A DNA stretch of 24,666 nucleotides, from IMG/VR virus record IMGVR_UViG_3300034072_000754, positions 1-24,666 of that record; one strand, 5' to 3'. Positions 3,263-24,581 of the stretch are shown in pieces. The notes under the pieces were generated by a model. That model was not told where the DNA came from. It did not search any database and saw nothing but the letters and a program-made list of their open reading frames with translations. The DNA is from a virus. Both the position numbers and the translations under genes were made by a program. Within the stretch, counting starts at the first letter, position 1; each line of letters begins with the position of its first letter.

Positions 3263-5032
3263 TCAGCTCCAAGACAAGCGGGAAGAACGCGGCTGGCCAG
3301 ACGCCGCCGTGAGAGGTTCGTGGTCGAAGGCGTGCATGGCCGCCCAGGCAAGGTCCGCATGGCCGGTCTCTTCGGTGCGGCCGGCCTCATAGGTCACCGC
3401 GCGGCCCGAGCTGGTCACGCTCTTGCGGATGGCCATGAAGCTCTGAGCGACGTCGATCGCGCCCGCGTCCATCTCGAAGCGCCCGCGACTGATCGTGTCG
3501 TGAGCCTTCAAGACCATCCGGGTCTTGACCTCGGGCGAATAGGTGATGGCCCGCGCGCCGGGGTAAAACTGCTGCACGAGCTGGAACACACCCAGGCCCA
3601 TCCCCGTCGCGTCGATCCCGATGTAAGCGACGGCATAGCGGGCGCAAATGTCCTTGATCGCCTTGGCCTGGGTGGCGAAGTCCATCCCCCGCCATTGATG
3701 CTTTTCGAGAAGGCGGAACTTGCCCCCCGGCGCGGCCGGCGGCGCGATCACCACGAGCGCGGCGCGGTCGCCGGTATGCGAGGGATCATAGCCCAGCCAC
3801 ACCGGCCGATCGCCATACGGGCGCCCGCCCTCGATCATGGCGCGCCAGTCGACATCGGCCCACTCTTCGAGGCTGTCGACCATGCACCGCTGAAGCATCT
3901 CCAGCGGGAACACCGACGCGTTGTCGTCGATGAATTCGCACATCAACAGATTGGCGAATTGGTCCGCCGTGTACTCTTCGCGAAGCTCGTCAATGTCGAA
4001 GAGATCGCACCCGCCGCGCTGGGCGTCCTCGATCGTCACGATGTGCCGCCACTTGCGATCCGGCCCGCGAAGGCCGTCGATCAAGGCCCCGTGGCTGACG
4101 TCGATCTCGACCCGATCGCCCTTCGGCCGCTTCTTGTTCCACGCCTCGCCGGTCCAGAACGGATAGGCTTGGTGGCTTACGCTCGAAGGCGTCGAGAAGT
4201 AGGTTTTGCGCCACTTCTTGTGTAGCGCCATGCCGCTCGCGACCTTCTCCAGTTCGGTGAACCGGAAGGTCCAAAAGAACTCATCGAAATAGAAATTGCC
4301 GTGGTAGCCCTGGGCGGTGCGGGCGTTGGTCCCGAGGAAGTAGAGGATCGCCCCGTTCGCCAGAACGATCGGGTCGCCGGTCAACTCGACTTCGACCTCT
4401 TTGGCGAAGGCGACGATGTATTGGCGGAAAACGTGCGCCTGGGCTTTGCTGGCGCTGAGGAAAATCTGGTTTCGGCCGGTCTTCAGGGCATCAACAAGCG
4501 CCTCGCGGGCGAAGTAGTACGTGGCCCCGATCTGGCGCGACTTCAGGATGACGCGCGAGCGCTCCATGCCCGCCGCCGCCCAGAACTTCTGATAGTCGAA
4601 TAAACCGCCTTCGAAGAGGGCGATCAGCTTGGCCGCTTGCTCGTCTGTGAAGTGGTTCTTGGTCGGGCGGTTCCTGCTGTTCTTGCGGTTCCGCTCGCCG
4701 ATCGCCGGGTTTAGGTCGCCTTCGTGTCCGCCCGGCTCGCCATAGCGGCGCACCCGCGCAAGGCGCTCGATCTGGCGCGTCAGAAGGTCAATGTCGCGGA
4801 CGTCCGCGCCGGTCTTGCCGTCCTTCAGGACGAGCGCGATCAGCTTGGCCTCAATGCAGGTTTCGATCCGCGTGATCGCCTGGGCGTCCGCCCAGCCGTC
4901 GCGATCCTTCCAACTGGCCACCGTGGTCCGTGGCACGCCGAAGTGATCGGCGATCTCGCTCACCGGCCAACCCATCCAGAACAGGGCGCGCGCGTTGCGG
5001 CGTATGTCGGGGCTCTTGGGCAACAGGTCCAT
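3263..5032 (-). CDS. P: terminase large (ATPase) subunit, P2 gpP family
   Basis: The DNA-packaging motor: it cuts concatemeric DNA at cos and pumps it through the portal using ATP. Its 589 residues match the P2 gpP size. In order it has an N-terminal helix-turn-helix (about 10-47, GWPVSEIADHFGVPRTTVASW), a Walker A variant KSRQIGAT (164-171), Walker B FYFDE (247-251), then an RNase H-like nuclease with GYDPS (Asp416), GIDATG (Asp474) and HADLAWA (Asp560) as likely metal ligands. It is first in the leftward operon. There is no obvious Shine-Dalgarno before the ATG; 46 bases upstream begins the GTTGT-N14-ACAAC palindrome, which fits a short-leader late promoter shared divergently with gene O. 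Confidence 0.96.
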   Translation of the reverse strand: MDLLPKSPDIRRNARALFWMGWPVSEIADHFGVPRTTVASWKDRDGWADAQAITRIETCIEAKLIALVLKDGKTGADVRDIDLLTRQIERLARVRRYGEPGGHEGDLNPAIGERNRKNSRNRPTKNHFTDEQAAKLIALFEGGLFDYQKFWAAAGMERSRVILKSRQIGATYYFAREALVDALKTGRNQIFLSASKAQAHVFRQYIVAFAKEVEVELTGDPIVLANGAILYFLGTNARTAQGYHGNFYFDEFFWTFRFTELEKVASGMALHKKWRKTYFSTPSSVSHQAYPFWTGEAWNKKRPKGDRVEIDVSHGALIDGLRGPDRKWRHIVTIEDAQRGGCDLFDIDELREEYTADQFANLLMCEFIDDNASVFPLEMLQRCMVDSLEEWADVDWRAMIEGGRPYGDRPVWLGYDPSHTGDRAALVVIAPPAAPGGKFRLLEKHQWRGMDFATQAKAIKDICARYAVAYIGIDATGMGLGVFQLVQQFYPGARAITYSPEVKTRMVLKAHDTISRGRFEMDAGAIDVAQSFMAIRKSVTSSGRAVTYEAGRTEETGHADLAWAAMHAFDHEPLTAASGQPRSSRLSWS

Positions 5033-5078
5033 GACGGCGGACCCTAGCGGCGAGGTTTCGCGCGGGCGGCGCGCCCGC

Positions 5079-5102
5079 GTTGTCGGCGTCTCGGCTCACA
5101 AC
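5079..5102. promoter_or_regulatory. late-operon activator palindrome, copy 1 (P/O divergent)
   Basis: Inverted repeat GTTGT (5079-5083), 14 bases, ACAAC (5098-5102). The inner 14 bases differ from copy 2 at two positions only. It lies between the divergent terminase and scaffold genes, 46 bases from the terminase ATG and 91 from the preferred O start (49 from an upstream ATG at 5152). P2 Ogr binds TGT-N12-ACA centred near -55 at late promoters. Here the spacing is N14, so this is a related but not identical arrangement. Confidence 0.7.
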
Positions 5103-5193
5103 ATCACAAGGTTGAGCCGCGCGAGCGGTCTGGACCGAATGGCGGCCGATCATGGCGCTCGATCCCGCGCCAGCTTTTAGCCGCGAGAGACAC

Positions 5194-6072
5194 ATGGCCA
5201 AGACCCGCTTTTTCCGCGTCGCCGTCGAGGGCGCGACCACCGATGGCCGCCACATTGAGCGCGCCTGGATCGAGCAAGCCGCCCGCAACTATTCGACCGG
5301 AAAATACACCGCCACGGTCAATCTGGAGCACATCAAGGGCGTCCTCCCCGGCGGCTCCGCTGGTAGCCCGTTCGGCGCTTACGGGACCGTCACGGCCCTG
5401 AAGGCCGAAGAGATCAGCGACGGACCGCTCAAGGGCAAGCTGGCGCTGTACGCCCAGGTCGAGGCCACCGACGATCTGGTCAAGCTCAACAAGGAAGGCC
5501 AGAAGATTTTCCCCTCGTGCGAGATCAACCCGGCCTTCGCCGGCTCCAACGAGGCCTATCTGGTCGGGCTGGCGATCACTGACGATCCGGCGAGCCTGGG
5601 GACCGAACGGTTCCAATTCTCCGCCAAGTCTTCGGCCAACACCTTCGCCAAGCGGAAGCAAGACGCCGGCAACGTCCTGACGGCGACCACCGATGATCTG
5701 GGCTTGACCCTGGAGCTGGAGCCGGAGGCTCCGGCAACCGAGAGCTTCGCCGCGCAAATCACCGCCGGCATCAAGGAAGCCTTCGCCTCGATCCTGAAGC
5801 CGGCCGTCCCGGCGACGCCGCCGGCTCCGGCCGCTCCGGCCGCTCCGGCCGCTCCGGCGGACCAGAACGCGGCCCTCTATGCCGCGATCGAAGGCGGCTT
5901 CGAGAAGATGGCCGGCGGCTTCGAAAAGGTCTTCTCCGCCCAGGCGGCGGAGGTCTCGGGCCTCAAGTCGCAAATCCAAGACCTCACGGCGAAGTTCGCC
6001 GCCACCGCCGCGCCGGGCCAAGGCCGCGAACCGGCCACCGGCGGCACGGGCGCGGTCACCACCGACTGCTAA
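5194..6072 (+). CDS. O: capsid scaffolding/maturation protease, P2 gpO family
   Basis: Acts as internal scaffold and as a serine protease that trims capsid, scaffold and portal during head assembly. It has 292 residues. The N-terminal protease domain carries the family triad: Asp17 in EGATTDGR, His46 in NLEHIKG and Ser108 in FPSCEINP, followed by YLVGLAITDDPASLGTERFQF. An Ala-Pro linker (about 205-222) is encoded by a 9-bp tandem repeat, and the C-terminal part with QAAEVSGLKSQIQDLTAKF is a probable coiled coil serving as scaffold. I chose ATG 5194 because MAKTRFFRVAVEG aligns with the start of P2 gpO and GAGAGA precedes it; ATG 5152 would add 14 residues and sit closer to the late palindrome. 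Confidence 0.94.
   Translation: MAKTRFFRVAVEGATTDGRHIERAWIEQAARNYSTGKYTATVNLEHIKGVLPGGSAGSPFGAYGTVTALKAEEISDGPLKGKLALYAQVEATDDLVKLNKEGQKIFPSCEINPAFAGSNEAYLVGLAITDDPASLGTERFQFSAKSSANTFAKRKQDAGNVLTATTDDLGLTLELEPEAPATESFAAQITAGIKEAFASILKPAVPATPPAPAAPAAPAAPADQNAALYAAIEGGFEKMAGGFEKVFSAQAAEVSGLKSQIQDLTAKFAATAAPGQGREPATGGTGAVTTDC
5824..5859 (+). repeat. 9-bp tandem repeat inside gene O
   Basis: Four consecutive copies of GCTCCGGCC (last copy GCTCCGGCG) encode the Ala-Pro-Ala linker between the protease and scaffold parts of gpO. The copy number is likely to vary between relatives by slippage, without breaking the frame. Confidence 0.85.
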
Positions 6073-6127
6073 CCGCGCCGCCGTCTAGACGCCCCTCCCC
6101 GCCGCCACATCGGAACCGTAAGACACC

Positions 6128-7171
6128 ATGCACAACGACACCCGCCGCGCCCTTCTGGCGTACACCTCGCAAGTCGCCATCCTGAACGGCGTCGCTTCGG
6201 CGACTGAGAAGTTCACGGTCGCGCCGTCCGTCCAACAGACCCTGGAGAAGCGCCAGACCGAAAGCAGCGCCTTCCTTCAGGCGATCAACATGATCGGCGT
6301 CCGCAATCAGGAAGGCGAAAAGCTGGGCCTGGGCGCGGCCGGCACGATCGCGCGCCGTACCAACACCAAGGTCAAGGAGCGCAAGGCCCGCGTCGCTCAC
6401 TCGCTGGGTTCGAACCGCTACCGCTGTGAAAAGACCGACTTCGACACCGCCCTTCCCTACGAACAACTCGACGCTTGGTCGCAGTTCCCTGAGTTCCAGA
6501 CGCTGATCCGCGACGCCGTTCTTCAGCAACAGGCGCTGGACCGCATCATGATCGGCTTTAACGGGACGCACGCCGCGATCGAGACCGATCCCGAAGAGTT
6601 CCCGCTTCTGCAGGACGTCAACAAGGGCTGGCTCCAGCACATCCGCGAGCAAGTCCCCGCCCAGGTCATCGCCGAAGGCGAGAAGGTTGCGGACAAGGTC
6701 ATTATCGACCCGCGCCCCGACCCCGCTCACGAGGGCGAAATCCTGGGCGACTACGCCACGCTCGACGCGGCGGTGTTCGACGCCAAGAAGAACCTCGCGC
6801 CCTGGGCGCAAGAGCGCGCCGACCTCGTCGTCATCGTCGGCCGCAACCTGATCAACGAGAAGATATTCCCGATGATCAACAAGGCGATCGACCCGACCGA
6901 ACAGGTCGCGCTCAACATCATCATGGGCGCCAAGCAAATCGGCGGCCTCCCCGCCGCCGTGGTCCCGTTCTTCCCGGCCGATGCGTTCCTGATCACCACG
7001 CTCAAGAACCTGTCGATCTATTGGCAAATCGGCGCTCGCCGCCGCGCCATCATCGACAATCCGAAGGCCGATCAGGTCGAGAACTTCGAAAGCTCGAATG
7101 ACGCCTACGTGGTCGAAGATTTCGGCCTGGTCTCGCTGGTCGAGAACATCGAAGTCCGCCCCGCCCACTAG
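6128..7171 (+). CDS. N: major capsid protein, P2 gpN family
   Basis: Builds the icosahedral shell. Its 347 residues are close to P2 gpN (357). Family landmarks are visible throughout: an N-terminal FTVAPSVQQTLEKRQTESSAFLQAINMI, then GVRNQEGEKLGLG, IARRTNTKVKERKAR, YRCEKTDFDTALPYEQLDAWSQFPEF, MIGFNGTHAA, the LQDVNKGWLQHIRE segment, and near the end YWQIGARRRAIIDNPKADQVENFESSNDAYVVEDFG. In P2 the N-terminal ~31 residues are removed by gpO; the equivalent region here precedes VQQTLEKRQTES. It lies 55 bases after O in the same operon and is followed by a GC-rich hairpin. The protein is notably free of the Ala-Pro stretches seen in its neighbours. Confidence 0.97.
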   Translation: MHNDTRRALLAYTSQVAILNGVASATEKFTVAPSVQQTLEKRQTESSAFLQAINMIGVRNQEGEKLGLGAAGTIARRTNTKVKERKARVAHSLGSNRYRCEKTDFDTALPYEQLDAWSQFPEFQTLIRDAVLQQQALDRIMIGFNGTHAAIETDPEEFPLLQDVNKGWLQHIREQVPAQVIAEGEKVADKVIIDPRPDPAHEGEILGDYATLDAAVFDAKKNLAPWAQERADLVVIVGRNLINEKIFPMINKAIDPTEQVALNIIMGAKQIGGLPAAVVPFFPADAFLITTLKNLSIYWQIGARRRAIIDNPKADQVENFESSNDAYVVEDFGLVSLVENIEVRPAH

Positions 7172-7193
7172 GCGCGGCCCTCTAGGCGAACCC

Positions 7194-7217
7194 GGCCGGC
7201 GGCTCACCTCGCCGGCC
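7194..7217 (+). other. GC hairpin after the capsid gene
   Basis: GGCCGGCG (7194-7201), an 8-base loop, then CGCCGGCC (7210-7217): a perfect 8-bp stem with no T-run after it. It may stabilise or cap the abundant capsid message rather than terminate it; transcription must continue into gene M for packaging. Confidence 0.5.
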
Positions 7218-7255
7218 GATCTCTCCCCCCCAAGACCCGACAAGGACCCGAGCCC

Positions 7256-8170
7256 ATGAGCCTCGCCGACCGCAACCGCGCCCGCACCCTGGCGCGCCTC
7301 GCCGAAGCCACCAAGACGCCGGCCGCCGCCGAACCCGAAGCCGTCGCCGGTAAGACGCCGCGCGCCAGCCTGTCGACCCGCAATCGCGAGCGAAAGGCCG
7401 CCGCCCAACTCACGCCGCGCGCCGCCGCCGTCGCCCAGGCCATGAACCCGGCCCCCGCCCCGGCCTCGGAACCGGCCGCGCCGGCCGCCGCGCCGCCACC
7501 CGCCCCGGAAGATGAACGCGCCCGCGCCTACCGCATGAAGCTGGTTGAGCTGGGCGAAGACCGTCGCCGCCTGAAGGCGATCCAATCGGTCGCCGGCAAG
7601 ATCGAGCTTAAGCGCCAGCTCCTGCCGAACTATGCCCCGTGGGTGGGCGGCATCATCGCGGCCGAAGCCGAAGGCGGCGTGATCGACCAAGACGAGATTT
7701 TCACGACGGTCATGATCTGGCGTATTGACGTGGGCGACTTTGCGGGCGCGTTGCCGCTCGCCGCCTACGCCCTCCGCCACAAGCTGAAGCTCCCCGAACG
7801 CTACAACCGCGACGTGGCCACCACGGTCGCCGAAGAGATCGCCAACGCGGCCCTCAAGGCCATGACGGCCGGCGAGCCTGTCGATCTCGAAGCGCTTCGC
7901 GAGGCCGCGCGCCTCACGGCTGATCACGACATGCCCGATCAGGTCCGCGCCAAGCTCCTGAAGGCGCAAGGCTTGGCCCTCATGCCGATCGCCCAGGGCG
8001 CGGAAGAGATCAACGAGGCCCTGGGCTACCTCACCCGCGCCTTCGGCCTCAACGAAAAGGTCGGCGTCAAAAAAGAGATCGAGGCCCTTCGCCGCGAGCT
8101 GGCCAAGCTCCAAGCGGCCCCGCCCGCCGAAGCCGCCGATCAAACCGACACCGGCGGCGCGCCCGCCTAG
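7256..8170 (+). CDS. M: terminase small (endonuclease) subunit, P2 gpM family
   Basis: Partner of gpP that recognises cos and starts packaging. It has 304 residues, longer than P2 gpM (247) because of an Ala/Pro-rich N-terminal part (about 1-85, including APAPASEPAAPAAAPPPAP). The family core begins around YRMKLVELGEDRRRLKAIQSVAGKIELKRQLLPNYAPWVGG and continues with DEIFTTVMIWRIDVGDFAGALPLAAYALRHKLKLPERYNRDVATTVAEEI. Start at ATG 7256. It follows the capsid hairpin and precedes a second hairpin before gene L. The C-terminal 20 residues are again Ala/Pro-rich. Confidence 0.93.
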   Translation: MSLADRNRARTLARLAEATKTPAAAEPEAVAGKTPRASLSTRNRERKAAAQLTPRAAAVAQAMNPAPAPASEPAAPAAAPPPAPEDERARAYRMKLVELGEDRRRLKAIQSVAGKIELKRQLLPNYAPWVGGIIAAEAEGGVIDQDEIFTTVMIWRIDVGDFAGALPLAAYALRHKLKLPERYNRDVATTVAEEIANAALKAMTAGEPVDLEALREAARLTADHDMPDQVRAKLLKAQGLALMPIAQGAEEINEALGYLTRAFGLNEKVGVKKEIEALRRELAKLQAAPPAEAADQTDTGGAPA

Positions 8171-8207
8171 AGACGATCCCCGGCGCTAATCCCCCGCTGG
8201 AGATCTA

Positions 8208-8240
8208 GGGGCGTCTCGATCTTGGGGGGAGAGACGCCCC
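8208..8240 (+). other. inverted repeat between M and L
   Basis: GGGGCGTCTC (8208-8217) and GAGACGCCCC (8231-8240) form a perfect 10-bp stem with a 13-base loop, within a 167-base gap. No T-run follows, so it is not a typical intrinsic terminator; it could be an RNA-processing or stability hairpin, or a protein site. The rest of the gap is C/G-rich with no ORF or clear promoter. Confidence 0.55.
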
Positions 8241-8337
8241 ACCCCTTCGCCCCCCGGCGATCGGCGGCGGAGCTGGACCCAGAGGGCGCAAGCCCAACCG
8301 GCCCGGCTCCCCACCGCCGTATCGGAGCCCGCCCCTT

Positions 8338-8817
8338 ATGAGCCTGATCGCCCTTCCGCCCGTTGACCAAGCCGTCGTCACGCCCGAGGGCGAGACGATC
8401 GAGGCCGGCCCGTTCTGGCCCTCGCAAAGCACCGCGGAACTTCGCGGGGCCAGCCAAGTCGGCGGCGAAATTGATGACTACCGTTTCCGCGAGGCGGTCC
8501 TTGCCGCGATCATCTGGATTGACGCCCAGCTCACGCCCTGGCGCGTGATGCAGGAAGCCGCCGGCTTCGCCACCCTCGCCGACGTTCCGGCCCCGACCGT
8601 GGGCGGTGAGAGCGCCAAGGTCATCCTCTTCCGCCGCGCCCTCTTGGCCGCCGTCCGCGCCGATCTTGCCGAGGTCTCGCGCGACTTCGACGCCACCGCG
8701 ACCGGCGATCAGAAGGCCGAGCGCCTGGAGCCGGTGATTGACGATCATCGCCGAAACGCGGCCTGGGCGCTCTCCGACCTTCAGGGCAAGCCCCGCGCGC
8801 GCGTGAGGCTGCTGTGA
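8338..8817 (+). CDS. L: head completion protein, P2 gpL family
   Basis: Connects the filled head to the tail by capping the portal. Its 159 residues are near P2 gpL (169). Typical segments are IEAGPFWPSQSTAELRGASQVGGEIDDYRFREAVLAAIIWI, with VILFRRALLAAVRADLAEVSRDFDATATGDQKAERLEPVIDDHRRNAAWALSDL toward the C-terminus. The stop TGA (8815-8817) overlaps the ATG of gene X by one base, so the two are translationally coupled. The start is ATG 8338, directly after the long M-L gap. Confidence 0.92.
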   Translation: MSLIALPPVDQAVVTPEGETIEAGPFWPSQSTAELRGASQVGGEIDDYRFREAVLAAIIWIDAQLTPWRVMQEAAGFATLADVPAPTVGGESAKVILFRRALLAAVRADLAEVSRDFDATATGDQKAERLEPVIDDHRRNAAWALSDLQGKPRARVRLL

Positions 8818-9035
8818 TGGCCGCCCTCACGCCCGTTCAAGCCCTGCCCGACGAGACGGTTGACGCCCTGGTCTATCGGGTGACCGGCGCGGCGTCGCCG
8901 ACCGTCGAAGCCGTGCTTGAGGCCAACCCCGGCCTTGTCGAGCTGGGCTTTCGCCTCCCCGCCGGAACCGTGGTGATGATCCCGAACGATCAGCCGAAGG
9001 CCGCCACCGCCACCCTCGTACAGCTTTGGGACTGA
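8817..9035 (+). CDS. X: tail protein X, LysM-like
   Basis: A 72-residue small tail protein. The pattern ALPDETVDALVYRVTG, VEAVLEANPGLVELGFRLPAGTVVMIPN is the LysM-like fold of P2 gpX, which is needed for tail assembly near the baseplate. I chose ATG 8817, overlapping the L stop by one base, over a GTG three bases upstream. It is followed after two bases by the holin gene. Confidence 0.93.
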   Translation: MAALTPVQALPDETVDALVYRVTGAASPTVEAVLEANPGLVELGFRLPAGTVVMIPNDQPKAATATLVQLWD

Positions 9036-9037
9036 TC

Positions 9038-9376
9038 ATGAAGCCTGAGTTCATCGAAGCCGCCCAGAACGCCGCCGGAGCCCTTGGCCCCGCCGCCCTG
9101 GGCTCCGCCGTCGCCCAGGCCTGGAAACCGGGCCTGTCTTGGCGGCAACGCCTTGTGCAATGGCTGGTCGGGATTTGCGTGTCCTACTTCGTGACGCGCG
9201 CGGCTTCGGTCACCCTGGGTCTCAACGAATTCGTCGCCCAGGCGATCGGGTTCGTCGTGGCCATGTGCGCCTTCGAGGTCGCCCCGCGACTGGTCAAGGC
9301 CGTGGGCGACGCCTTCGCCACCCTTCCCGATCTGGTCCGCGACTTCGCCAGTCGCTTCCGCGCGCCGGGCGCCTGA
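9038..9376 (+). CDS. probable phage holin
   Basis: A 112-residue protein placed between tail gene X and the endolysin, the position of holin gene Y in P2. It has a short polar N-terminus, then two hydrophobic stretches at about 40-60 (VQWLVGICVSYFVTRAASVTL) and 65-82 (FVAQAIGFVVAMCAFEVA), and an Arg/Lys-containing tail. A weaker hydrophobic segment at 14-28 could be a third helix. Holins make lethal membrane holes that time lysis. I do not recognise a specific holin family, so the call rests on topology and context. Adjacent gene ends and starts are two bases apart (TGATCATG). Confidence 0.7.
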   Translation: MKPEFIEAAQNAAGALGPAALGSAVAQAWKPGLSWRQRLVQWLVGICVSYFVTRAASVTLGLNEFVAQAIGFVVAMCAFEVAPRLVKAVGDAFATLPDLVRDFASRFRAPGA

Positions 9377-9378
9377 TC

Positions 9379-10029
9379 ATGGGTGAGCTGATCCTGTTCC
9401 CTCCCCCCGTCGTCGCCGCCCTTCAGGCTCGTCTAGACGCCGCCGGCCGCCCGTGTGGCGCTCATGACGGCGTCTTGGGCCCGCGCACCTTGGCCGCTCT
9501 GATCGACCACGTCGCCGGGCGTTACGTGGGCGATCTTGGCCTTACACTGGCGCGCGCCATGCTGGTCGAATTCCCCCGCCGGCAAATCATCTCGCCCCTG
9601 CGGGTCGCTCACTTCCTCGCCCAGGCCGCCCACGAGACGGGCGGCTTCGGCTTTATGGTCGAGATCGGCGCGGAGGCCTATTTCCGCCGCTATGACGGGC
9701 GCAAAGACCTGGGCAACACCGAACCCGGCGACGGCGCGCGCTTTAAGGGTCGCGGCATCTTCCAACTCACCGGCCGGGCCAACTATCGTTCGTTCGGTCG
9801 CCGCCTGGGCCTCGATCTCGAAGCCTCGCCCAGCGCCGCCGCTCACCCCCCGATCGCCGTCGCCTTGGCCGGCCTCTATTGGGCCGACCGGGGCCTCAAC
9901 GCCCACGCCGACGCCGACGACGCCGAAGCCGTTACGCGGCGCATCAATGGCGGGCTCAACGGCCTGCCCGATCGCCTCGCTCGTCTCGCCCGCGCCAAGT
10001 CGGTTCTAGGCCTGAAGGAACCCGCCTGA
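9379..10029 (+). CDS. endolysin, glycoside hydrolase 19-like
   Basis: Degrades peptidoglycan glycan strands at lysis. It has 216 residues. The N-terminal 45 or so (VVAALQARLDAAGRPCGAHDGVLGPRTLAALIDHV) resemble a peptidoglycan-binding or leading helical domain. The catalytic domain carries HFLAQAAHETGGF with likely general acid Glu86, a second acidic residue at Glu95, and the strongly conserved RFKGRGIFQLTGRANYRSFG (121-140). No signal peptide is seen, so it depends on the holin for export. Start ATG 9379 follows the holin stop with the same TGATCATG junction. It is followed with a one-base overlap by the spanin pair, giving a complete lysis cassette. Confidence 0.93.
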   Translation: MGELILFPPPVVAALQARLDAAGRPCGAHDGVLGPRTLAALIDHVAGRYVGDLGLTLARAMLVEFPRRQIISPLRVAHFLAQAAHETGGFGFMVEIGAEAYFRRYDGRKDLGNTEPGDGARFKGRGIFQLTGRANYRSFGRRLGLDLEASPSAAAHPPIAVALAGLYWADRGLNAHADADDAEAVTRRINGGLNGLPDRLARLARAKSVLGLKEPA

Positions 10030-10508
10030 TGCTTCGCCCTCTCGCCGACCGGGTCCGCGCGGTGCGCGGCTATCTCACCCTCATGGCCCTCGCCGTCGCC
10101 GCCGCCGTCCTCTACGCGCGGTTTCAAGAGGTTCGCGCCGATCGCGACGCCCTGGCCTCTTGGGGCGAGGCCGTATGCGCCTCCGCCGGCTCGCATCTGG
10201 TCACCCCGCCGCCCGCTAAGGGCAAGGCCCCGGCGCGAGGCGTGGCCTGTCGCGCCAGCGTGGACGCCCTGGCGGCCTTCAAAGCCCAGGCCGCGACCAA
10301 GACCGCCGACGAGCTGTTGGCGGCCCTTGATGAACGCCTAGGCAAGGAAAACGTGGACGCGGCGTTGGCGCGTCGGGCGGCCGAGCGAGCCCAGCTCGCG
10401 GCCGAAAGGATGGAGGCGGCCGATGCGGCTGTTCAAGGTGATCACGTCGGGCCTTCTTGGTTTGACGCTCTCAATCAGTCTGGCGGCTTGCGCGCACCGG
10501 CCCGCTGA
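10029..10508 (+). CDS. putative inner-membrane spanin (Rz-like)
   Basis: A 159-residue protein with one N-terminal membrane helix (about 13-30, GYLTLMALAVAAAVLYA) and then a charged, Ala-rich, mostly helical periplasmic domain, with a likely coiled coil at about 95-140 (LLAALDERLGKENVDAALARRAAERAQLAAERMEAA). This is the architecture of Rz-type i-spanins, which fuse the inner and outer membranes after endolysin action. It overlaps the endolysin stop by one base and contains the start of the lipoprotein gene in another frame near its 3' end. Sequence identity of spanins is always weak, so the call rests on architecture and context. Confidence 0.8.
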   Translation: MLRPLADRVRAVRGYLTLMALAVAAAVLYARFQEVRADRDALASWGEAVCASAGSHLVTPPPAKGKAPARGVACRASVDALAAFKAQAATKTADELLAALDERLGKENVDAALARRAAERAQLAAERMEAADAAVQGDHVGPSWFDALNQSGGLRAPAR

Positions 10509-10746
10509 GACCGCGCCCGCGCCGCAAGCCGTTGTGATCCGGGTCAAGGACACCCCGCCCGCCGATCTCACGGCTTGCCCGGTGCGTCCGGTGGGCTTCC
10601 CGCTGGACGCGGAAGCCACCATGCCGCCGGCCGTCCGCGCCGCCGCCATCCGCCTGTCAAAGGCCTATGCCGCGACGGTCGATCAGCTTGAACGCCTGAT
10701 CGCCTGGACCGCCGCGAACCCCTGTCCCGAGGTCCCCGCCCGATGA
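10423..10746 (+). CDS. putative outer-membrane spanin lipoprotein (Rz1-like)
   Basis: A 107-residue lipoprotein. The signal peptide (1-22, VITSGLLGLTLSISLAA) ends in the lipobox LAAC with Cys23 as the lipidated residue, followed by a Pro-rich stretch (RPAETAPAP, KDTPPADL). It partners the i-spanin to bridge the periplasm. The first 86 bases lie inside the i-spanin gene in the +1 frame, the partial-overlap arrangement known for LysB/LysC-type pairs. It has two further cysteines (in TACPVRP and NPCPEV). Its stop overlaps the start of gene R by four bases (ATGA). Confidence 0.83.
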   Translation: MRLFKVITSGLLGLTLSISLAACAHRPAETAPAPQAVVIRVKDTPPADLTACPVRPVGFPLDAEATMPPAVRAAAIRLSKAYAATVDQLERLIAWTAANPCPEVPAR

Positions 10747-11228
10747 AGAAGGCCGCCCTTGTCCGCGACTATCTGGAGCGGGCCATTCCGCGCCTGAAGG
10801 GCAACGCCCAAGCCTTGCGGGTCTATGTGGATGAGGGCGGCGTGGCGGCGATCGGCGCGCCCGGCCGCGCTTGGGAATATGGGTTCAAGCTCAACCTGAT
10901 CTTCGAAGACATGCCGGTTGACGAGCTGGACGCGGTGACCGGCGCGCTCTTGGCCTGGATCGAGCTGAACCAACCCAGCCTTCTCCAGTCGCCCGACGCC
11001 CGCCGCCGCGTGCTCACCTTCGAGGCCGATTTCACGGGCGCTCACGCCATGGATGTTTCGGTGACGCTGGACCTCACCCAAGGCGTCAAGCTGATCGCGG
11101 CGGCCGGCGGCAAGTTCGAAGCCGTCCACCTAGACGAGCCGCGCCCCGATCCGGTGTATGGCCAGCTCGAAGAGGTCTTCGCCAACGGCGCCCAGATTAT
11201 CAACCACCGGCCCGCCCATGAGCCATGA
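10743..11228 (+). CDS. R: tail completion protein, P2 gpR family
   Basis: Completes the head-proximal end of the tail so it can join the head. Its 161 residues are near P2 gpR (155). Family-like segments are MKKAALVRDYLERAIPRLKGNAQALRVYVDEG, AWEYGFKLNLIFEDMPVDELDAVTGALLAWIELNQPSLL and VLTFEADFTGAHAMDVSVTLDLTQ. It starts at ATG 10743 overlapping the o-spanin stop and ends overlapping the start of S by 11 bases, so it is embedded in a tightly packed operon. Confidence 0.92.
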   Translation: MKKAALVRDYLERAIPRLKGNAQALRVYVDEGGVAAIGAPGRAWEYGFKLNLIFEDMPVDELDAVTGALLAWIELNQPSLLQSPDARRRVLTFEADFTGAHAMDVSVTLDLTQGVKLIAAAGGKFEAVHLDEPRPDPVYGQLEEVFANGAQIINHRPAHEP

Positions 11229-11691
11229 TCTGATCGCGGTCGAGGCCTGGGCGGCGGCGGTCCTTCAGCGCCTATCGCCGGGCGAGCGCCGCCGCTTCCT
11301 GCGATCCTACGCCGCCGAACTTCGCCGCTCGCAAGCCGAGCGCATCGCCGCCCAGAAGAACCCGGACGGCTCCGACTTCGAGCCCCGCAAGGTCCAGCCC
11401 GGCCGCACGCTTCGCGACAAGGCCGGCCGCGTCCGCCGTCGAGGCCCGATGTTCAAGAAGCTCCGCACCGCCAAGCGCCTGAAGGTCACCGAAGCCACCG
11501 AAACCGCCGTGAGCGTCGGGTTCACCGGCCGCGACGCGGCGATTGCGTCTGTCAGTCAGTTCGGGCGAACCGTCCGCGTCGGCAAGGAGCCCAGCGCGCC
11601 CATGGTCCGCTTCGCCGTCCGCCGTCTAGTCGGGCTCACCGACCAAGAGCGCGAGGCCTTCGCCCGTCGCTTCCTCGATCAACTGACCTGA
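11218..11691 (+). CDS. S: phage virion morphogenesis / tail completion protein, P2 gpS family
   Basis: A 157-residue protein of the gpS family, acting with gpR in tail completion. Seen in the sequence: LQRLSPGERRRFLRSYAAELRRSQAERIAAQKNPDGSDFEPRK, then PMFKKLRTAKRLKVTEATETAVSVGFTGRDAAIASVSQFG, typical of the family. I chose ATG 11218, which overlaps the end of R. It is the last gene of the O-to-S operon; after it come 16 bases and the second late palindrome. Confidence 0.92.
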   Translation: MSHDLIAVEAWAAAVLQRLSPGERRRFLRSYAAELRRSQAERIAAQKNPDGSDFEPRKVQPGRTLRDKAGRVRRRGPMFKKLRTAKRLKVTEATETAVSVGFTGRDAAIASVSQFGRTVRVGKEPSAPMVRFAVRRLVGLTDQEREAFARRFLDQLT

Positions 11692-11707
11692 GACCCAGCG
11701 CCGCGAT

Positions 11708-11731
11708 GTTGTCGGCGTCCCGGCGCACAAC
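11708..11731. promoter_or_regulatory. late-operon activator palindrome, copy 2 (before J)
   Basis: GTTGT (11708-11712), 14 bases (11713-11726), ACAAC (11727-11731). The whole 24 bases are the exact reverse complement of copy 3 before gene V. Eight bases further on both copies carry CTCGCGGG. The J start codon is 44 bases downstream with no Shine-Dalgarno in front, and TTATCC at 11766-11771 is a weak -10 candidate. Confidence 0.75.
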
Positions 11732-11775
11732 GGCGCGGGCTCGCGGGCGCGCGAGCGGCGCGGCCTTATCCCGGC

Positions 11776-12651
11776 ATGGCCAACACGATCGACCTTTCGA
11801 ACCTCCCCGCGCCCGACATTGTCGAGCCGCTGTCGTTCGAGGCGATCCGCGCCCAGATGCTCGCGGAATTGCCGCCGGATTACGTCCTCGTCGAAAGCGA
11901 CCCGGCCGTGAAAATCCTGGCGATCGCCGCCTATCGCGAGCTTATGGTTCGCCAGCGCGTGAATGAGGGCGCGGTTGCGGGTATGCCCGCCAAGGCCCTC
12001 GGAAACGATCTGGTCAATCTCGCCGCGCTCTTTGGCGTCGTGCGCCTGGTGCTTGATCCCGGCGACCCAGACGCGGGTGTTCCGCCGGTCTTGGAGGACA
12101 TCGAAGACCTTCGCGCTCGTATGGTGCTCGCGCCGGAAGGTTTCAGCGTCGCCGGCCCGGTCGGAGCCTACGAGTTCCACGCGCGCGCCGCCGACCCGGA
12201 TGTTCTCGACGTTGCGGTTGATAGCCCGGCCCCGGCGGAGGTCTTGCTAACCGTGCTGTCGCGCGTGGGCGACGGCGAGCCGTCCGCCGATCTGCTGACC
12301 AAGGTGTCGGACGCCGTCAACGCCGACGCCGTGCGGCCGGTGGGCGACCGTGTCACCGTCCAGCCCGCTACGATCCTCGCCTTCGCGATCGAGGCGACCC
12401 TTCACGTTCTCCCCGGTCCAGACGCGTCCGTGGTTCTGGCGACCGCCCAGGCCCGCCTTGCCGAGTTCCTGGCCTCGCGCCGCAAGATCGGCCGCGCGGT
12501 CCCGATCAGCGGGCTCATGTCCGCCCTTCATGTTCCCGGCGTCGAGCGCGTGGCCCTGGCCTCGCCAGTCGCCGACGTCGCCGTTGACGCCGATCAAGCG
12601 GCCTATTGCGCCGCGCCCGTGGTCACCCTTGCCGAGGCTGGCGGCGCATGA
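11776..12651 (+). CDS. J: baseplate assembly protein, P2 gpJ family
   Basis: A baseplate wedge component. Its 291 residues match P2 gpJ (302). Family landmarks are DLSNLPAPDIVEPLSFEAIRAQMLAELP near the N-terminus, VLVESDPAVKILAIAAYRELMVRQRVNEGA, ALGNDLVNLAALFGVVR, and GPVGAYEFHARAADPDVLDVAV. It is the first gene of its operon, 44 bases after the late palindrome. In P2 it follows V and W; here it leads, with V and W found 4 kb downstream. The stop overlaps the start of I (ATGA). Confidence 0.95.
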   Translation: MANTIDLSNLPAPDIVEPLSFEAIRAQMLAELPPDYVLVESDPAVKILAIAAYRELMVRQRVNEGAVAGMPAKALGNDLVNLAALFGVVRLVLDPGDPDAGVPPVLEDIEDLRARMVLAPEGFSVAGPVGAYEFHARAADPDVLDVAVDSPAPAEVLLTVLSRVGDGEPSADLLTKVSDAVNADAVRPVGDRVTVQPATILAFAIEATLHVLPGPDASVVLATAQARLAEFLASRRKIGRAVPISGLMSALHVPGVERVALASPVADVAVDADQAAYCAAPVVTLAEAGGA

Positions 12652-13196
12652 CGGCGATCTCCCTTCTCCCGCCCAACGCCACCGACCTTGAACGGGCGCT
12701 TGAGGCCGCAACCGCCCGTCTTGGCGAGGTCCCGGTTCGGCTTCGCGATCTGTGGAACCCCCAAACCTGTCCCGTCGCCTTCCTCCCGTGGCTCGCCTGG
12801 GCGGTGAGCGTCGACGTCTGGGATGAGGCATGGCCCGAGGCCGTTAAGCGCGCCACCATCGCCGCCTCGATCCCCCTGCACCGGATCAAAGGCACGGTGC
12901 AGGCGGTCAAGCTCTCCCTCGCCCCGCTGGGTCTGTCTTCGGACGTGGTCGAGTGGTTTGAGGCCGTCCCAACCGGCGAGCCGGGGACCTTCAAGGTCGC
13001 CGTTCGCTATGACGGCAGCGGCCCCACGGTCACCCTGGCGATGCTGCGGACCATGCGCCGGGCGATCGACCGCGCCCGCCCGGTGAGCCGCGCCTATGGC
13101 ATCTCCCTGACCATGGCCGTCGACGGCCCGCTCTATGTCGCCGGTAGCGTGAGGCTTCAGGTCCGCGCCCGCCTCAACCCTCACCCCGCCGACTAG
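12648..13196 (+). CDS. I: tail protein, P2 gpI family
   Basis: A 182-residue baseplate protein. The N-terminal SLLPPNATDLERALEAATARLGEVPVRLRDLWNPQTCPVAFLPWLAWAVSVDVWD is the classic gpI signature (LW.P..CP...LPWLAWA..V..WD). It is followed by KRATIAASIPLHRIKGTVQAVKLSLAPLG. It links the baseplate to the fibre. ATG 12648 overlaps the J stop; the fibre gene starts 13 bases after its stop. Confidence 0.95.
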   Translation: MTAISLLPPNATDLERALEAATARLGEVPVRLRDLWNPQTCPVAFLPWLAWAVSVDVWDEAWPEAVKRATIAASIPLHRIKGTVQAVKLSLAPLGLSSDVVEWFEAVPTGEPGTFKVAVRYDGSGPTVTLAMLRTMRRAIDRARPVSRAYGISLTMAVDGPLYVAGSVRLQVRARLNPHPAD

Positions 13197-13209
13197 ACGA
13201 GGCTCCCCC

Positions 13210-13959
13210 ATGGCCGCCTTCTACCTTCGCTTGACCGCCCTGGGCCTCGCCGCCGTGGCCACCGCCATCGCCGAAGGCTCGCCCCTGCCCCTGGTTGACT
13301 TCGCCTTGGGCGATGGCGGCGGCGCGACCTATGACCCCACGGGCGCGGAAACCGACCTTGTCAACGAGGTCGCCCGCGTCCCGATCGAGACGGTCGCCCG
13401 CGATCCCGCCCAGGCCCATCGGGTGACGGTCACCGCCGTGGTCCCCGCCGAAGAGGGCGGGTTCTGGGTCCGCGAGCTGGGCGTGTTCACCGAAGGCGGC
13501 GACCTCTTCGCGATCGGCAAGTATCCCGAAGCCTACAAGCCCACGATCGCCGAAGGCGCGAGCTATGACCTTCAGGTCGCGGCGTCCATGACCATCGCCG
13601 CCGCCGCCGACGTCACGGTGAGCGAGCTGTCAGGCGACTTCTACGCGACCCGCGATTGGGCGCGCGCCAACGCCGATTTCTTCGCCGTGATCAGCGCCGG
13701 CCTCACCGCGCCGCCGGCCGCGCCCACGGCGGGCGACCAATACCTCATCCCGGCCGGTGCGGCCGGAGCCTGGGTGGGCCAAGCGGGCAAGATCGCCCAT
13801 TGGCGCGGCGCGCTCGAAGGCTGGCAGTTCCTCGCCCCGCGCAACGGCGCTCAAGCCAACGTCGCCGACGCCAACGCCACCCTGGTCAAGACGGCTGGGG
13901 AATGGGTCGAGACCGACAACCCCGCCGCCGCCCTCTTCCTTCACGCCAACTGTCTCTGA
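13210..13959 (+). CDS. H: tail fibre protein, short gpH-like with DUF2793-type C-terminus
   Basis: A 249-residue protein. Residues 1-140 look like the gpH N-terminal domain that attaches fibres to the baseplate (YLRLTALGLAAVATAIAEGSPLPLVDFALGDGGG, then VVPAEEGGFWVRELGVFTEGGDLFAIGKYPEAYKP). The C-terminal part has the pattern APPAAPTAGDQYLIPAGAAGAWVGQAGKIAHWRGALEGWQFLAPRNG, which I recognise as the DUF2793 motif found on many alphaproteobacterial phage fibres. It is much shorter than P2 gpH (669 residues), so receptor binding has probably passed to the large protein two genes downstream. Confidence 0.85.
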   Translation: MAAFYLRLTALGLAAVATAIAEGSPLPLVDFALGDGGGATYDPTGAETDLVNEVARVPIETVARDPAQAHRVTVTAVVPAEEGGFWVRELGVFTEGGDLFAIGKYPEAYKPTIAEGASYDLQVAASMTIAAAADVTVSELSGDFYATRDWARANADFFAVISAGLTAPPAAPTAGDQYLIPAGAAGAWVGQAGKIAHWRGALEGWQFLAPRNGAQANVADANATLVKTAGEWVETDNPAAALFLHANCL

Positions 13960-13966
13960 GGCCCCC

Positions 13967-14359
13967 ATGGCTCCCAACACCAAGCCCCTGTTCACCGGGA
14001 CGCCGAAGGTCGGCGTCGCCCAGCTCGCGGCGGCCAACCCGGCCCGCGACGGGACCGGCGCGATCGTTGATCTCTTCACGGCCGGCGCTAACGGCGGGCG
14101 CGTCGACAAGATCGTCATGCGCGCCAAGGCCGCCACTACGGCCGGCGCGGTGCGGCTGTTCTACAAGCCGGACGGCGGGGCCTGGAGCCTGATCGACGAG
14201 GCTCCCGTCACAGCCAACGCCGCGCTCGCCAGCTCGCCGGCGTTCGGTGCGATCTTGGACCCGATCGGCGGCCTCGTCTTGCCGGCCGGGGCCAAGGTGG
14301 GCGCTTCCACCCACAACGCCGAACCCTTCGCGGTCACGGCCTTCGGCGGGGACTTCTGA
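13967..14359 (+). CDS. small fibre-operon protein of unknown function
   Basis: A 130-residue protein between the H-like fibre and the large fibre, in the same direction with gaps of only 7 and 2 bases. It is Ala/Gly-rich with alternating beta-prone segments (KIVMRAKAATTAGAVRLFYKPDGGAWSLIDEAPV, GGLVLPAGAKVGASTHNAEPFAVTAFGGDF), suggesting a beta-sandwich virion or fibre-tip protein. I recall similar small proteins beside tail genes in other phages, but no named family. No signal peptide or membrane segment. Confidence 0.75.
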   Translation: MAPNTKPLFTGTPKVGVAQLAAANPARDGTGAIVDLFTAGANGGRVDKIVMRAKAATTAGAVRLFYKPDGGAWSLIDEAPVTANAALASSPAFGAILDPIGGLVLPAGAKVGASTHNAEPFAVTAFGGDF

Positions 14360-14361
14360 CC

Positions 14362-15942
14362 ATGAACAAGAGCCTCAACGGCTTCCCGCTCGCGCCCAGC
14401 CTCTTCACTTCGGATGCTTCCGCCCCGACGCTTGACCCTACCCTGGTCGGAACGCGCGGTAGCGCCATTGCGGGCGTCAATATCCGCAAGAATGACGGAC
14501 TGGTCATCGCGGCCGATGGTCGTGTCTATCCGTTTGAGTTTGTTGATTGCGACGCTCGTCTTAGCACTTCAACGCCGAATGTTTCTTCCGGCCCGGCCTT
14601 CAATCACCATCGCCAGCAGCAGCTTCGGCACCCTGAAAACGGCGACGTCTATTACGTCAGCAACTACTATTTCGGCGGTGCGGGGGTCGGCGGACTGGTG
14701 CTCAACCGCTGCTCCTCGTGGGGTAACGCCAACGCGATTTATAGACCAGTCGATACCGCTGGGATCGCTCGCGCAAGCGACCGCATGTTCTGGCTATCGA
14801 ACGGAAACATCTGCGTTGTTTGGCAGTTGAATGGCGGCGATCTTAAGTTTGCGATCTATGACCGCGCCCTAAACCAAGTGGTCGCCCCTACGGCGATCGC
14901 TACACCCGCCTCGGATGGCTTCTTTGACGCCCATCCCCTGGCCGGCGGCGGCTTCGCCGCGTGCTGGCTGGGCGCGGCCGGCGCGCAAAAGCTGGCGATC
15001 TTCGACAACGCCGGCGGCGTCGTCACGCCCGCCGCCACGATCCAGAATTGGGCCGGCGCGGTGGATACCTCGCTGGGCGTGAAGATGGCTGAACTTTCCA
15101 ACGGAAACCTCGCCATCGCCTTCGCCTCACGCTTCGGCGGCTCCAAGGGCCTCTATGCTGGCGTGTGGTCTCCAGTCGGCGCGCAAGTGGTCGCGCCCGC
15201 GCTGCTGTACGCTCCCGCCGCCCAGCCCGTGGCCTTCCCCGAAATCGCGGTTCTTCCCGGCTTCTTCGCGGTCGCCCAGGCCGACACGGTCAACACCAAG
15301 GTCTTCGTCCTATCAAACGCGGGCGCGGTGCAAGGTGCGGCCTATTCTAACGCGGTCGGCACCGGCGCGGCCGAGCTGACGATTAAGCTCGTGGCGGGCG
15401 ACGGCGAGTTCTGGCTGGCCTGTCAGCCGGGCGCTGGGCAAATCATGTTCGTCGCCTTACCCACGAGCGGCGCGGGCTACGCCGATTACAAAGTCACCCA
15501 CTCGTACCTGAACGCGGTTCTTCCGATCGACGGCTTCTGGGAGAAGGGGTATTTCGTCTGCTCTCAGTGGCGATATGGCGCTGTCTTCGACACCGAGAAC
15601 CGTCGCCTCGCTGGCTATACCTCCTTCGACACCTCTACTGCCGCCGCTTCCCCCTCGGTTAAGCAGGGGGTCGGGTTTAGGGCTCACAGCGTTCATGACG
15701 AGCCGTCGCAAGCCCTCTTGCGGATGAGCTACTGGATGCAGTTTGGCATCGTCGGTGTTGCCTCCGCCGACGCCGCCAAGGGTGAACAGGCCCGGTTCAC
15801 GATGGGTCCGGGCCTGTTCACGATTAACCGCGTCCCGTCCTCGGAGAGCTACTTCACGCTTGACTTCAACTTCCTGACCTACGGAGGCGGGGTCAAAGGC
15901 ACTCTCACCCCCAATAGCCTCTTCATTCGGAGCGTCGCCTAA
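14362..15942 (+). CDS. large putative receptor-binding fibre with beta-propeller-like repeats
   Basis: A 526-residue protein in the fibre operon. Its middle contains recurring blades about 50 residues apart: LSNGNICVVW (145-154), LAGGGFAACW (193-202), LSNGNLAIAF (245-254) and LPGFFAVAQ (298-306). Each is followed by a beta strand ending in an aromatic or hydrophobic core (LKFAIYD, QKLAIFD, LYAGVWS, KVFVLSN). Weaker matches continue near 345-370 and 390-400. This pattern suits a beta-propeller receptor-binding domain, followed by a C-terminal cap. Bases from about 14500 to 14900 use more A/T-ending codons than the neighbours, suggesting recombined host-range sequence. Function is inferred from position and repeats; it has no obvious P2 homologue. 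Confidence 0.8.
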   Translation: MNKSLNGFPLAPSLFTSDASAPTLDPTLVGTRGSAIAGVNIRKNDGLVIAADGRVYPFEFVDCDARLSTSTPNVSSGPAFNHHRQQQLRHPENGDVYYVSNYYFGGAGVGGLVLNRCSSWGNANAIYRPVDTAGIARASDRMFWLSNGNICVVWQLNGGDLKFAIYDRALNQVVAPTAIATPASDGFFDAHPLAGGGFAACWLGAAGAQKLAIFDNAGGVVTPAATIQNWAGAVDTSLGVKMAELSNGNLAIAFASRFGGSKGLYAGVWSPVGAQVVAPALLYAPAAQPVAFPEIAVLPGFFAVAQADTVNTKVFVLSNAGAVQGAAYSNAVGTGAAELTIKLVAGDGEFWLACQPGAGQIMFVALPTSGAGYADYKVTHSYLNAVLPIDGFWEKGYFVCSQWRYGAVFDTENRRLAGYTSFDTSTAAASPSVKQGVGFRAHSVHDEPSQALLRMSYWMQFGIVGVASADAAKGEQARFTMGPGLFTINRVPSSESYFTLDFNFLTYGGGVKGTLTPNSLFIRSVA

Positions 15943-16340
15943 TGGTCTGGACCCTCACGCGCCCAGAGACGGGCGAGATCAACACCTTCGACGTCCGCCC
16001 GGTTTACACGGCTGCGGCGGGCGGCTGGGTCGTGAACGGCATGACCTATCCAGACCCCGACGGTGATCGCTACGTCCTGACCCCGCCGACGACGCTCGTG
16101 ATCGACGTCCCGACGTTCATCATGCGCTTCCATCCGACCGAGGAGCTGGCGGCGCGGGCGAGCCAAGACGATATCATCAAGCTGTTCCTCCGCCGCCTGG
16201 ACGATCCGCGCGTCAAGAACGTCAACCTCGCCCATCCGTCCGTTCAGGGGGCCGTGATGTACATGGCGCTCAATGCCGAGCCGCCGCCGATCACGCCCGA
16301 CCGCGTGGCGGAAATCCTCGCGCCGGAGCCGTTGGCGTGA
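15942..16340 (+). CDS. small protein after the fibre, possible fibre assembly factor
   Basis: A 132-residue protein whose ATG overlaps the fibre stop by one base (TAATG). The N-terminal half is beta-rich (WTLTRPETGEINTFDVRPVYTAAAGGWVVNGMTYPDPDGDRYVLTPPTTLVIDVPTFIMRF), the C-terminal half helical (TEELAARASQDDIIKLFLRRLDDPRVKNVNLAHPSVQGAVMYMAL). It occupies the place of the fibre chaperone gpG in P2, so a fibre assembly or accessory role is plausible, but I see no chaperone signature. Its last four bases overlap the GTG start of the next gene. Confidence 0.7.
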   Translation: MVWTLTRPETGEINTFDVRPVYTAAAGGWVVNGMTYPDPDGDRYVLTPPTTLVIDVPTFIMRFHPTEELAARASQDDIIKLFLRRLDDPRVKNVNLAHPSVQGAVMYMALNAEPPPITPDRVAEILAPEPLA

Positions 16341-16603
16341 GGCGAGCCGGCCGTGTCCTCTTGGGCTGGGTCTTTCGCGTGCTGATCGCCCTTGATCAGC
16401 TCGCCAACACCCTCATCGGCGGCGATCCCGACGAGACCATAAGCAGCCGCGCCGCCAAGGGCTCGGCGCGCGGTGTCGCCGGCTGGTGTCTGCTCTGCCG
16501 TCTGTTGCACCTGATCGACCGGGACCATTGCGCCAAGTCCCTGGAGCCCGACGAGGGCGACCGCGATTGGTGGCGGGTTTCGTCGGGCTCCGCCAAGCCC
16601 TGA
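16337..16603 (+). CDS. conserved small phage protein, function unknown
   Basis: An 88-residue protein starting with GTG in a GTGA overlap with the previous stop. Landmarks are ALDQLANTLIGGDPDETISSRAAKG, WCLLCRLLHLIDRDHC and DEGDRDWW. I have seen the DQ-N-L-GG-PDETISSRA pattern with a downstream L-DRDHC in small proteins of many phages and prophages, with no assigned function. It has one hydrophobic N-terminal stretch (VLLGWVFRVLIAL) that may touch the membrane. It is the last gene before repeat cluster B. Confidence 0.75.
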   Translation: MRRAGRVLLGWVFRVLIALDQLANTLIGGDPDETISSRAAKGSARGVAGWCLLCRLLHLIDRDHCAKSLEPDEGDRDWWRVSSGSAKP

Positions 16604-16610
16604 AGCCGGG

Positions 16611-16731
16611 CTGCAGTCTAGTCGCGGGCGTCTATGGCCGATTCCGGCATAGTCGCCCGCGACTGTGGCGGCCGACATAGACGCCGCCGACTGTGCTTGA
16701 TCGAGATCCGGCATAGACGCGACCGCCTATG
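16611..16731. repeat. palindromic repeat cluster B (complete 115-bp element plus CTGCAG)
   Basis: CTGCAG (16611-16616) is followed by four 20-bp units: 16617-16636, 16648-16667 (CATAGTCGCCCGCGACTGTG), 16676-16695 (CATAGACGCCGCCGACTGTG) and 16712-16731 (CATAGACGCGACCGCCTATG), with spacers of 11, 8 and 16 bases. Its reverse complement aligns end to end with cluster C at about three quarters identity without gaps. It lies between the fibre operon and the V operon. Confidence 0.85.
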
Positions 16732-16752
16732 GTCGACGGCGGCTTCGCCGGT

Positions 16753-16776
16753 GTTGTGCGCCGGGACGCCGACAAC
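16753..16776. promoter_or_regulatory. late-operon activator palindrome, copy 3 (before V)
   Basis: GTTGT (16753-16757), 14 bases, ACAAC (16772-16776), with CTCGCGGG eight bases later (16785-16792) as in copy 2. The 24 bases are identical to copy 2 read on the other strand, showing that the site works in either orientation. The V start is 47 bases downstream without a Shine-Dalgarno. Confidence 0.75.
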
Positions 16777-16823
16777 ACCGCCCGCTCGCGGGTCGCGCGC
16801 GATTGCGCCCAACCTGCCGGCCA

Positions 16824-17393
16824 ATGTCCAGCGAACCCGACATTCCCGGCGATCTTCGTGATCTCGCGCGCCTTGGCGTGGTCCTTGACCGCGATCTTGC
16901 CGCGCGCGTCTGCACCGTCGAGATCGGCGACCTGAAGCTTCCCCGCGTCCGCTGGGGAAGCCTTCGCATGGGCGCGTTCCGCCTCTGGGCTCCGCCCTCG
17001 ATCGGCGAACAGGTCCTGGTGATCTCCCCCGAGGGCGACAGCGCCCAGGCGGTGATTGTCGCCAGCCTTCCGAGCAACGCCCACCCGGCCCCGACCGCGC
17101 TGGACGCCCTGTGGTTCGACGCCGACGACGGCTCGCGCGTGGTCTATGACCCGCAAGCCCACACCCTGACCGCCGCCCTCTGCGAAGGCGGCAAGGTCAT
17201 CGTCACCGCCCCGGCCGGGGTCGAGATCACGGGCGACGTGACGGTGACGGGCGACCTCACCTTGAACGGCAAGGCCACGGTCACGGGCGATGTTCTTGCC
17301 GATGGCGACGTGAAGGCCGGGACGATCTCGCTGAAGACCCACAAGACCAAGGGCGTCCAGCCGGGCGCGGGCCTCTCGGGTGAGCCGCAATGA
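16824..17393 (+). CDS. V: baseplate spike protein, P2 gpV family
   Basis: The membrane-piercing spike at the centre of the baseplate. Its 189 residues are near P2 gpV (211). It has an N-terminal OB-like domain (VLDRDLAARVCTVEIGDLKLPRVRWGSLRMGAFRLWAPPSIGEQVLVISPEGD, about 20-75), then a triple beta-helix built of repeated hydrophobic-T-G-D steps (EITGDVTVTGDLTLNGKATVTGDVLADGDVKAG, about 134-166), and the tip SLKTHKTKGVQPG. The tip normally carries an H-x-H iron ligand; here only His173 remains (H-K-T). I chose ATG 16824. It heads the operon V-W-FI-FII-E-T-U-D, and its stop overlaps the W start (ATGA). Confidence 0.93.
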   Translation: MSSEPDIPGDLRDLARLGVVLDRDLAARVCTVEIGDLKLPRVRWGSLRMGAFRLWAPPSIGEQVLVISPEGDSAQAVIVASLPSNAHPAPTALDALWFDADDGSRVVYDPQAHTLTAALCEGGKVIVTAPAGVEITGDVTVTGDLTLNGKATVTGDVLADGDVKAGTISLKTHKTKGVQPGAGLSGEPQ

Positions 17394-23854: not shown

Positions 23855-23975
23855 TATAGACGTTCGCGTCTATGGCGGATCTAGCTCGAGCACAGACGCC
23901 GGCGTCTGTGCTGGCCACCCTAGGCGCGGGCGACTATGGCCGACTCCGGCCTAGACGGCGGCGACTGTGCTGCAG
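23855..23975. repeat. palindromic repeat cluster C (complete 115-bp element plus CTGCAG)
   Basis: Units are 23855-23874 (TATAGACGTTCGCGTCTATG), 23891-23910 (CACAGACGCCGGCGTCTGTG, a perfect 20-bp palindrome), 23919-23938 (CCTAGGCGCGGGCGACTATG) and 23950-23969 (CCTAGACGGCGGCGACTGTG), then CTGCAG (23970-23975). Spacers are 16, 8 and 11 bases, the mirror order of cluster B, with the same total length. It lies between gene D and the convergent BRO gene, whose last codons fall inside it. Confidence 0.85.
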
Positions 23976-24540: not shown

Positions 24541-24553
24541 GGGAGTTATATAC

Positions 24554-24581
24554 TTGACAAAGCGGTCCTGACGGCTAGGTT
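24554..24581 (+). promoter_or_regulatory. probable transposase promoter in the IS end
   Basis: TTGACA (24554-24559) is a perfect -35 hexamer; TAGGTT (24576-24581), 16 bases later, is a weak -10. AGGAG (24589-24593) precedes the transposase ATG at 24602. It is one of the few sigma70-like promoters visible in the window, in keeping with the foreign origin of the IS. Confidence 0.5.

Follow-up and report, generated by a model that had tools for sequence, protein, structure and literature searches.

Late genes of the window

The stretch of DNA analysed here (the window) is a fragment of 24,666 bp from a P2-like phage in IMG/VR; its late genes were assigned by Pfam and PHROGs as well as by matches to P2-type relatives. 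The order runs from Q and P, which are transcribed away from O, through O, J with I, and V with W, as far as D. No RNA families or tRNAs were found in the window. The late genes on which the analysis draws, and the three dyads found upstream of them, are as follows.

3263–5032, minus strand: P, terminase large subunit, of the P-Q late operon (Pfam/PHROGs)
5079–5102, no strand assigned: dyad GTTGTCGGCGTCTCGGCTCACAAC, predicted activator site common to the divergent P and O promoters; P2 likewise has one annotated pP/pO site
5152–6072, plus strand: O, scaffold/protease, first gene of the O-S late operon (Pfam/PHROGs)
11708–11731, plus strand: dyad GTTGTCGGCGTCCCGGCGCACAAC, predicted activator site of the J promoter (pattern search)
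11776–12651, plus strand: J (baseplate J), first gene of the J operon, with its ATG 56 bp from the dyad axis (Pfam/PHROGs)
16753–16776, plus strand: dyad GTTGTGCGCCGGGACGCCGACAAC, predicted activator site of the V promoter; reverse complement of the J copy
16824–17393, plus strand: V (baseplate spike), likely start ATG at 16824, 59 bp from the axis (Pfam/PHROGs)
22845–23843, plus strand: D, which closes the V-D late operon; ogr would be expected after it, where 823 bp are left in the contig

A dyad recurs upstream of the late operons

The pattern GTTGT-N14-ACAAC has exactly three exact matches in the window, one between P and O, which are divergent, and one each upstream of J and V, as the first-pass annotation had claimed, and none elsewhere. 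Matches were seen in none of 100 dinucleotide shuffles of the window (0 expected), and the reversed control pattern had none in the window. When one mismatch was permitted, a single extra N14 match appeared, at 10531 within a reading frame, and no spacing other than N14 gave more than one near-match. As the copy between P and O is common to both genes, the three dyads would serve four promoters. Repeat comparison bore out the further claim that over 24 bp the J copy is the exact reverse complement of the V copy, with 97% identity over 29 bp, and the sequence said to be shared after these two copies is CTCGCGGG, which lies downstream of both at +20 to +27 from the axis (11740–11747 and 16785–16792). 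The inner bases common to all half-sites of the window are GTTGTNNGC.

A TGT/ACA half-site dyad upstream of late operons, as in P2-type Ogr-dependent promoters, is present in the window. In P2 (NC_001895; promoters PP, PO, PV and PF), as in the window, one site is common to P and O; each of its three annotated activator sites has the GTTGT half, opposite a partner half that is degenerate. P2 differs in having J inside the V operon, a separate F promoter and half-sites that are closer together (N11-N12 versus N14). The Ralstonia phages phiRSA1 and phiRSY1 carry TGTTGT-N13-ACAACA together with an Ogr homologue (PMC5694545); they share the half-site and the four late promoters with the window and differ in their host and in a spacer that is one base shorter. 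For the Stenotrophomonas phage Smp131, promoters PP', PO', PJ' and PV' were proposed and reported to be similar to TGT-N12-ACA (PMC3931495). Its operon order, with J before V, is that of the window, and exact TGT-N12-ACA strings were not found in the three upstream regions of its sequence (JQ809663). For J to precede V and have a site of its own is not exceptional: the arrangement also occurs in alphaproteobacterial prophages. The N14 of the window departs from the published spacing (N12 in P2, N13 in phiRSY1); as spacing varies among Ogr-bearing phages, it was not taken as defining. The range among relatives is N11 to N14, and half-site spacing is, on the sequences compared, a loose character.

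Related prophages carry the sites at the same places

No near-identical phage was found, the best J match being about 53–54% identical (in G010 and G1016), and the exact 24-mer had no match in viral contigs. P2-like contigs and prophages were reached through terminase relatives, and in many of them a phage-specific palindrome recurs upstream of P/O and V. Genomes of one alphaproteobacterial family, perhaps Caulobacteraceae, were found by way of a Robiginitomaculum MAG, and 17 of 390 contained a P2-like terminase. A motif search extended to related prophages, as proposed with the first-pass annotation, located GTTGT-N13/14-ACAAC at P/O and J in 11 prophages of this family and, in those that include the V region, at V as well (in two copies of G927 a T replaces the first G, and G921 breaks off before V). 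The spacing is N14 in the window and eight relatives and N13 in three. The J site of G1016 is identical to the V site of the window at 21 of 24 positions. Some prophages have additional copies; in G1016, for example, one directly follows FII, and G907 has them at four other places. The operon order and sites of the P2-like prophages in G1016, G1073, G771 and G813 are the same as in the window.

Scattering of the site over the host chromosome had been named as evidence against a prophage regulon. In the 2.9-Mb genome G771 all three exact matches lie inside the prophage, and in G813 three of six do, the other three being unrelated to it.

Geometry of the predicted late promoters

A total of 47 promoters from 12 phages were aligned on the dyad axis, and similarity to TATAAT, a -10-like hexamer, was found to peak 44 bp downstream of the axis for P, J and V, a height reached in none of 500 null runs, though the phages are related, so that null counts are not independent probabilities and the significance is overstated. 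The -10-like matches of individual promoters are poor. No TTGACA peak was found in the -35 region of P, J or V, the best position being 43, in the -10 region, whereas TTGAG at offset 21 is conserved in every O promoter across the 12 phages. Those of P, J and V hence show a -10-like element without a consensus -35, as do P2-type Ogr-dependent promoters, and O has TTGAG. The first ATG is 55–59 bp from the axis in 34 of the 35 P, J and V promoters. A GCGCGCG box about 31 bp from the axis is common in high-GC relatives but is poorly separated from background, and is not claimed. The predicted promoter elements in the window are listed below.

5032, minus strand: first base of the P start codon, 58 bp from the axis; predicted leaderless or near-leaderless start
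5041–5046, minus strand: -10-like TAGGGT of the P promoter, 44 bp from the axis (TAGCGT in relatives), placed by alignment
5112–5116, plus strand: TTGAG, -35-like element of the O promoter, 21 bp from the axis (promoter alignment)
5135–5140, plus strand: -10-like CCGAAT of the O promoter, a weak match (promoter alignment)
11740–11747, plus strand: CTCGCGGG, -35 region of the J promoter, +20 to +27; most relatives have (C/G)TCGC there
11764–11771, plus strand: -10-like CCTTATCC of the J promoter; CCTATCC or GACATG in relatives (promoter alignment)
16785–16792, plus strand: CTCGCGGG, -35 region of the V promoter
16810–16815, plus strand: -10-like CAACCT of the V promoter; CCAACAT or GCCATC in relatives (promoter alignment)

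The -10-like peak at 44 bp and the ATG at 55–59 bp would imply that the dyad is centred at about -56 of the start point. The annotated sites of P2 are centred about 55–57 bp before the mapped start points, comparable with the distance to the ATG in the window, and the start point of P2 V is the first base of that gene. The match between these distances suggests leaderless mRNAs. The simplest reading suggested by the alignment is that these are promoters activated in the P2 manner and that the mRNAs of P, J and V are leaderless.

Repressors, too, typically have dyads at the promoters they control. That the sites are operators of a phage or host repressor silencing the late genes is highly improbable: the idea draws on the general likeness of promoter dyads to repressor operators, and no result of the analysis favours it. 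The dyads lie upstream of the -10/-35 region at the distance of the P2 activator and not over the promoter. A good -35 is missing from the promoters of P, J and V, as is usual where an activator is needed, and beyond the prophage the host has no exact copy in G771 and only a few, unrelated ones in G813.

Inner bases of the sites

Spacers are more alike within a phage (mean similarity 0.71) than between phages (0.51) or at random (0.37). They are identical within G771, G813, G885 and G927 and different between these phages, and they differ within the phage in G1016, G907 and G1073. This likeness suggests that the activator may read the inner bases too, or that the copies have been homogenised. 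In five prophages (G813, G885, G892, G921 and G951), the two halves differ: one is GTTGTCAG, the other is GTTGTG(C/T), and it is the CAG half that lies on the side of P, J and V. The same asymmetry, with the other half nearest O, is conserved in L194-L195, L222-L223, L226-L227 and L241-L242; the O promoter, which faces the non-CAG half, is alone in having the TTGAG -35-like box.

Near identity within a phage would also be explained if the sites served recombination, with the inverted J and V repeats able to invert the segment from J to the fibre genes. In G010, as in the window, the two copies are indeed exact reverse complements of each other, and the identical spacers within the four phages named above would fit as well. 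Nevertheless, the J and V copies form direct repeats in four prophages (G771, G813, G885 and G951), spacers differ within three phages, the gene order is not inverted, and the fixed promoter geometry would be left unexplained. This scarcely credible explanation was rejected, as orientation is not conserved. We offer only tentatively, as a rather unlikely proposal, that each phage has a private late-promoter code, in which the inner bases beside GTTGT and the N11-N14 spacing are alike across its own sites and are read by the Ogr fingers, and that transcription of P, J and V begins precisely at the start codon.

A predicted Ogr-type activator of the late operons

The three dyads are predicted to be docking sites for an Ogr-type zinc-finger late-gene activator, with a probability of about 0.88. 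The sites, their positions and conservation, the promoter geometry and the Ogr genes of relatives are the basis of this reading. Each 24-bp dyad would be an operator at which a C4 zinc-finger activator of the Ogr/Delta family, the phage's own, binds as a complex that is symmetric or nearly so, about 56 bp ahead of the start point. The bound activator would recruit host RNA polymerase to promoters with a -10-like element and little or no -35, Ogr binding and activation via the polymerase being presumed to proceed as in P2. Four late operons (P-Q, O-S, J and fibres, and V-D) would be switched on, the P/O site acting both ways, and transcription of P, J and V would begin at the start codon or only a few bases from it. 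The Ogr-like regulon of the first-pass annotation is therefore retained, given where the sites lie relative to the late operons, how far they are from the promoters, their conservation among related prophages and their occurrence alongside Ogr_Delta genes; the spacing change that it had stressed is not distinctive, with N11-N14 in relatives and N13 published. The window is best read as a further Ogr-type regulon, with N14 a minor variant of the published N12 and N13, and no new kind of system. The P2 late switch would thereby be extended to alphaproteobacterial phages, with tight site and promoter geometry, and the geometry predicts leaderless late mRNAs.

Among P2-like viral contigs, 42 of 50 have a PF04606 (Ogr_Delta) match above the Pfam cut-off. 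An Ogr_Delta zinc-finger gene lies 93–230 bp after D in 10/10 GTTGT-type alphaproteobacterial prophages that include the D region (93–196 bp in G1016, G1073, G771 and G813), and in all 25 relatives in which both genes were mapped Ogr follows D on the same strand. The gap is 0.9–11 kb in the other 15; G002, with GTTGT-N13 sites, has Ogr 2.5 kb from D. No link was seen between the loop length of the Ogr finger and the spacing, N13 and N14 both going with CX2CX22CX4C. Sequence search for solved structures near the Ogr finger gave none beyond weak zinc-finger matches, so the natural pairs of site and Ogr make its DNA recognition and spacing tolerance directly testable.

In the window, the 823 bp after D hold a repeat block and a minus-strand Bro-N gene, where the four prophages named above have Ogr, then a cut-off ORF. 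Neither PF04606 (at E 10) nor a profile from the relatives' Ogr proteins with filters off had a match in the window. The absence of an Ogr gene from these 823 bp, as against a distance of at most 230 bp in the ten closest-type prophages, is a point against the Ogr reading. The earlier statement that no ogr follows D holds for the DNA present, but is weak evidence given the 15 relatives with distant genes; likewise, the activator it could not name is missing from the fragment, which may mostly reflect a contig that ends 823 bp past D. As the contig ends just within an ORF starting MNLTSPIFQDADKAREHLEAL, later genes are not visible. Displacement of ogr from the position after D is unusual for the GTTGT-type group, and the gene has here moved, lies off-contig or has been replaced; it is probably off-contig.

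A non-Ogr protein that replaced Ogr at the same late-operon activator sites, for example the CxxC ORF at 1880–2272 or the Bro-N protein, is improbable. It would account for the lack of Ogr at the place kept by close relatives, the ORF has four cysteines, and the Bro-N gene lies after D on the minus strand. Yet the half-sites of the window match those of Ogr-bearing phages, the cysteine spacing of the ORF is unlike CX2CX22CX4C and gives no PF04606 match, and G1073 has a relative of the ORF plus a true Ogr, so that the ORF is no substitute there. The ORF was rejected as the activator, having no relatives among viral contigs. It lies beside Q, and its relative in G1073 is 35% identical and in the same place.

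The Bro-N family gene (23984–24582, minus strand, E 1.2e-16) lies just after D, convergent to the late operon. The plus-strand ORF beginning MNLTSPIFQDADKAREHLEAL (24602–24666) runs off the contig end; its start, in our estimation, resembles that of IS1595-family transposases, and a Pfam search with its 21 aa gave no match. A repeated element here could explain the contig break.

A second family of intergenic repeats, TAGACGCCGGCGTCTATGG-like and in multiple units, occurs at 247–274, 1088–1190, 16603–16737 and 23856–23983. The arms at 16603–16730 and 23856–23983 are inverted copies, 78% alike over 128 nt. Located at operon ends, these repeats might be terminators or borders of inserted genes. 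GGTAACA/TGTTACC repeats, clustered in a gene-poor stretch at 1279–1580, are perhaps repressor or replication sites.
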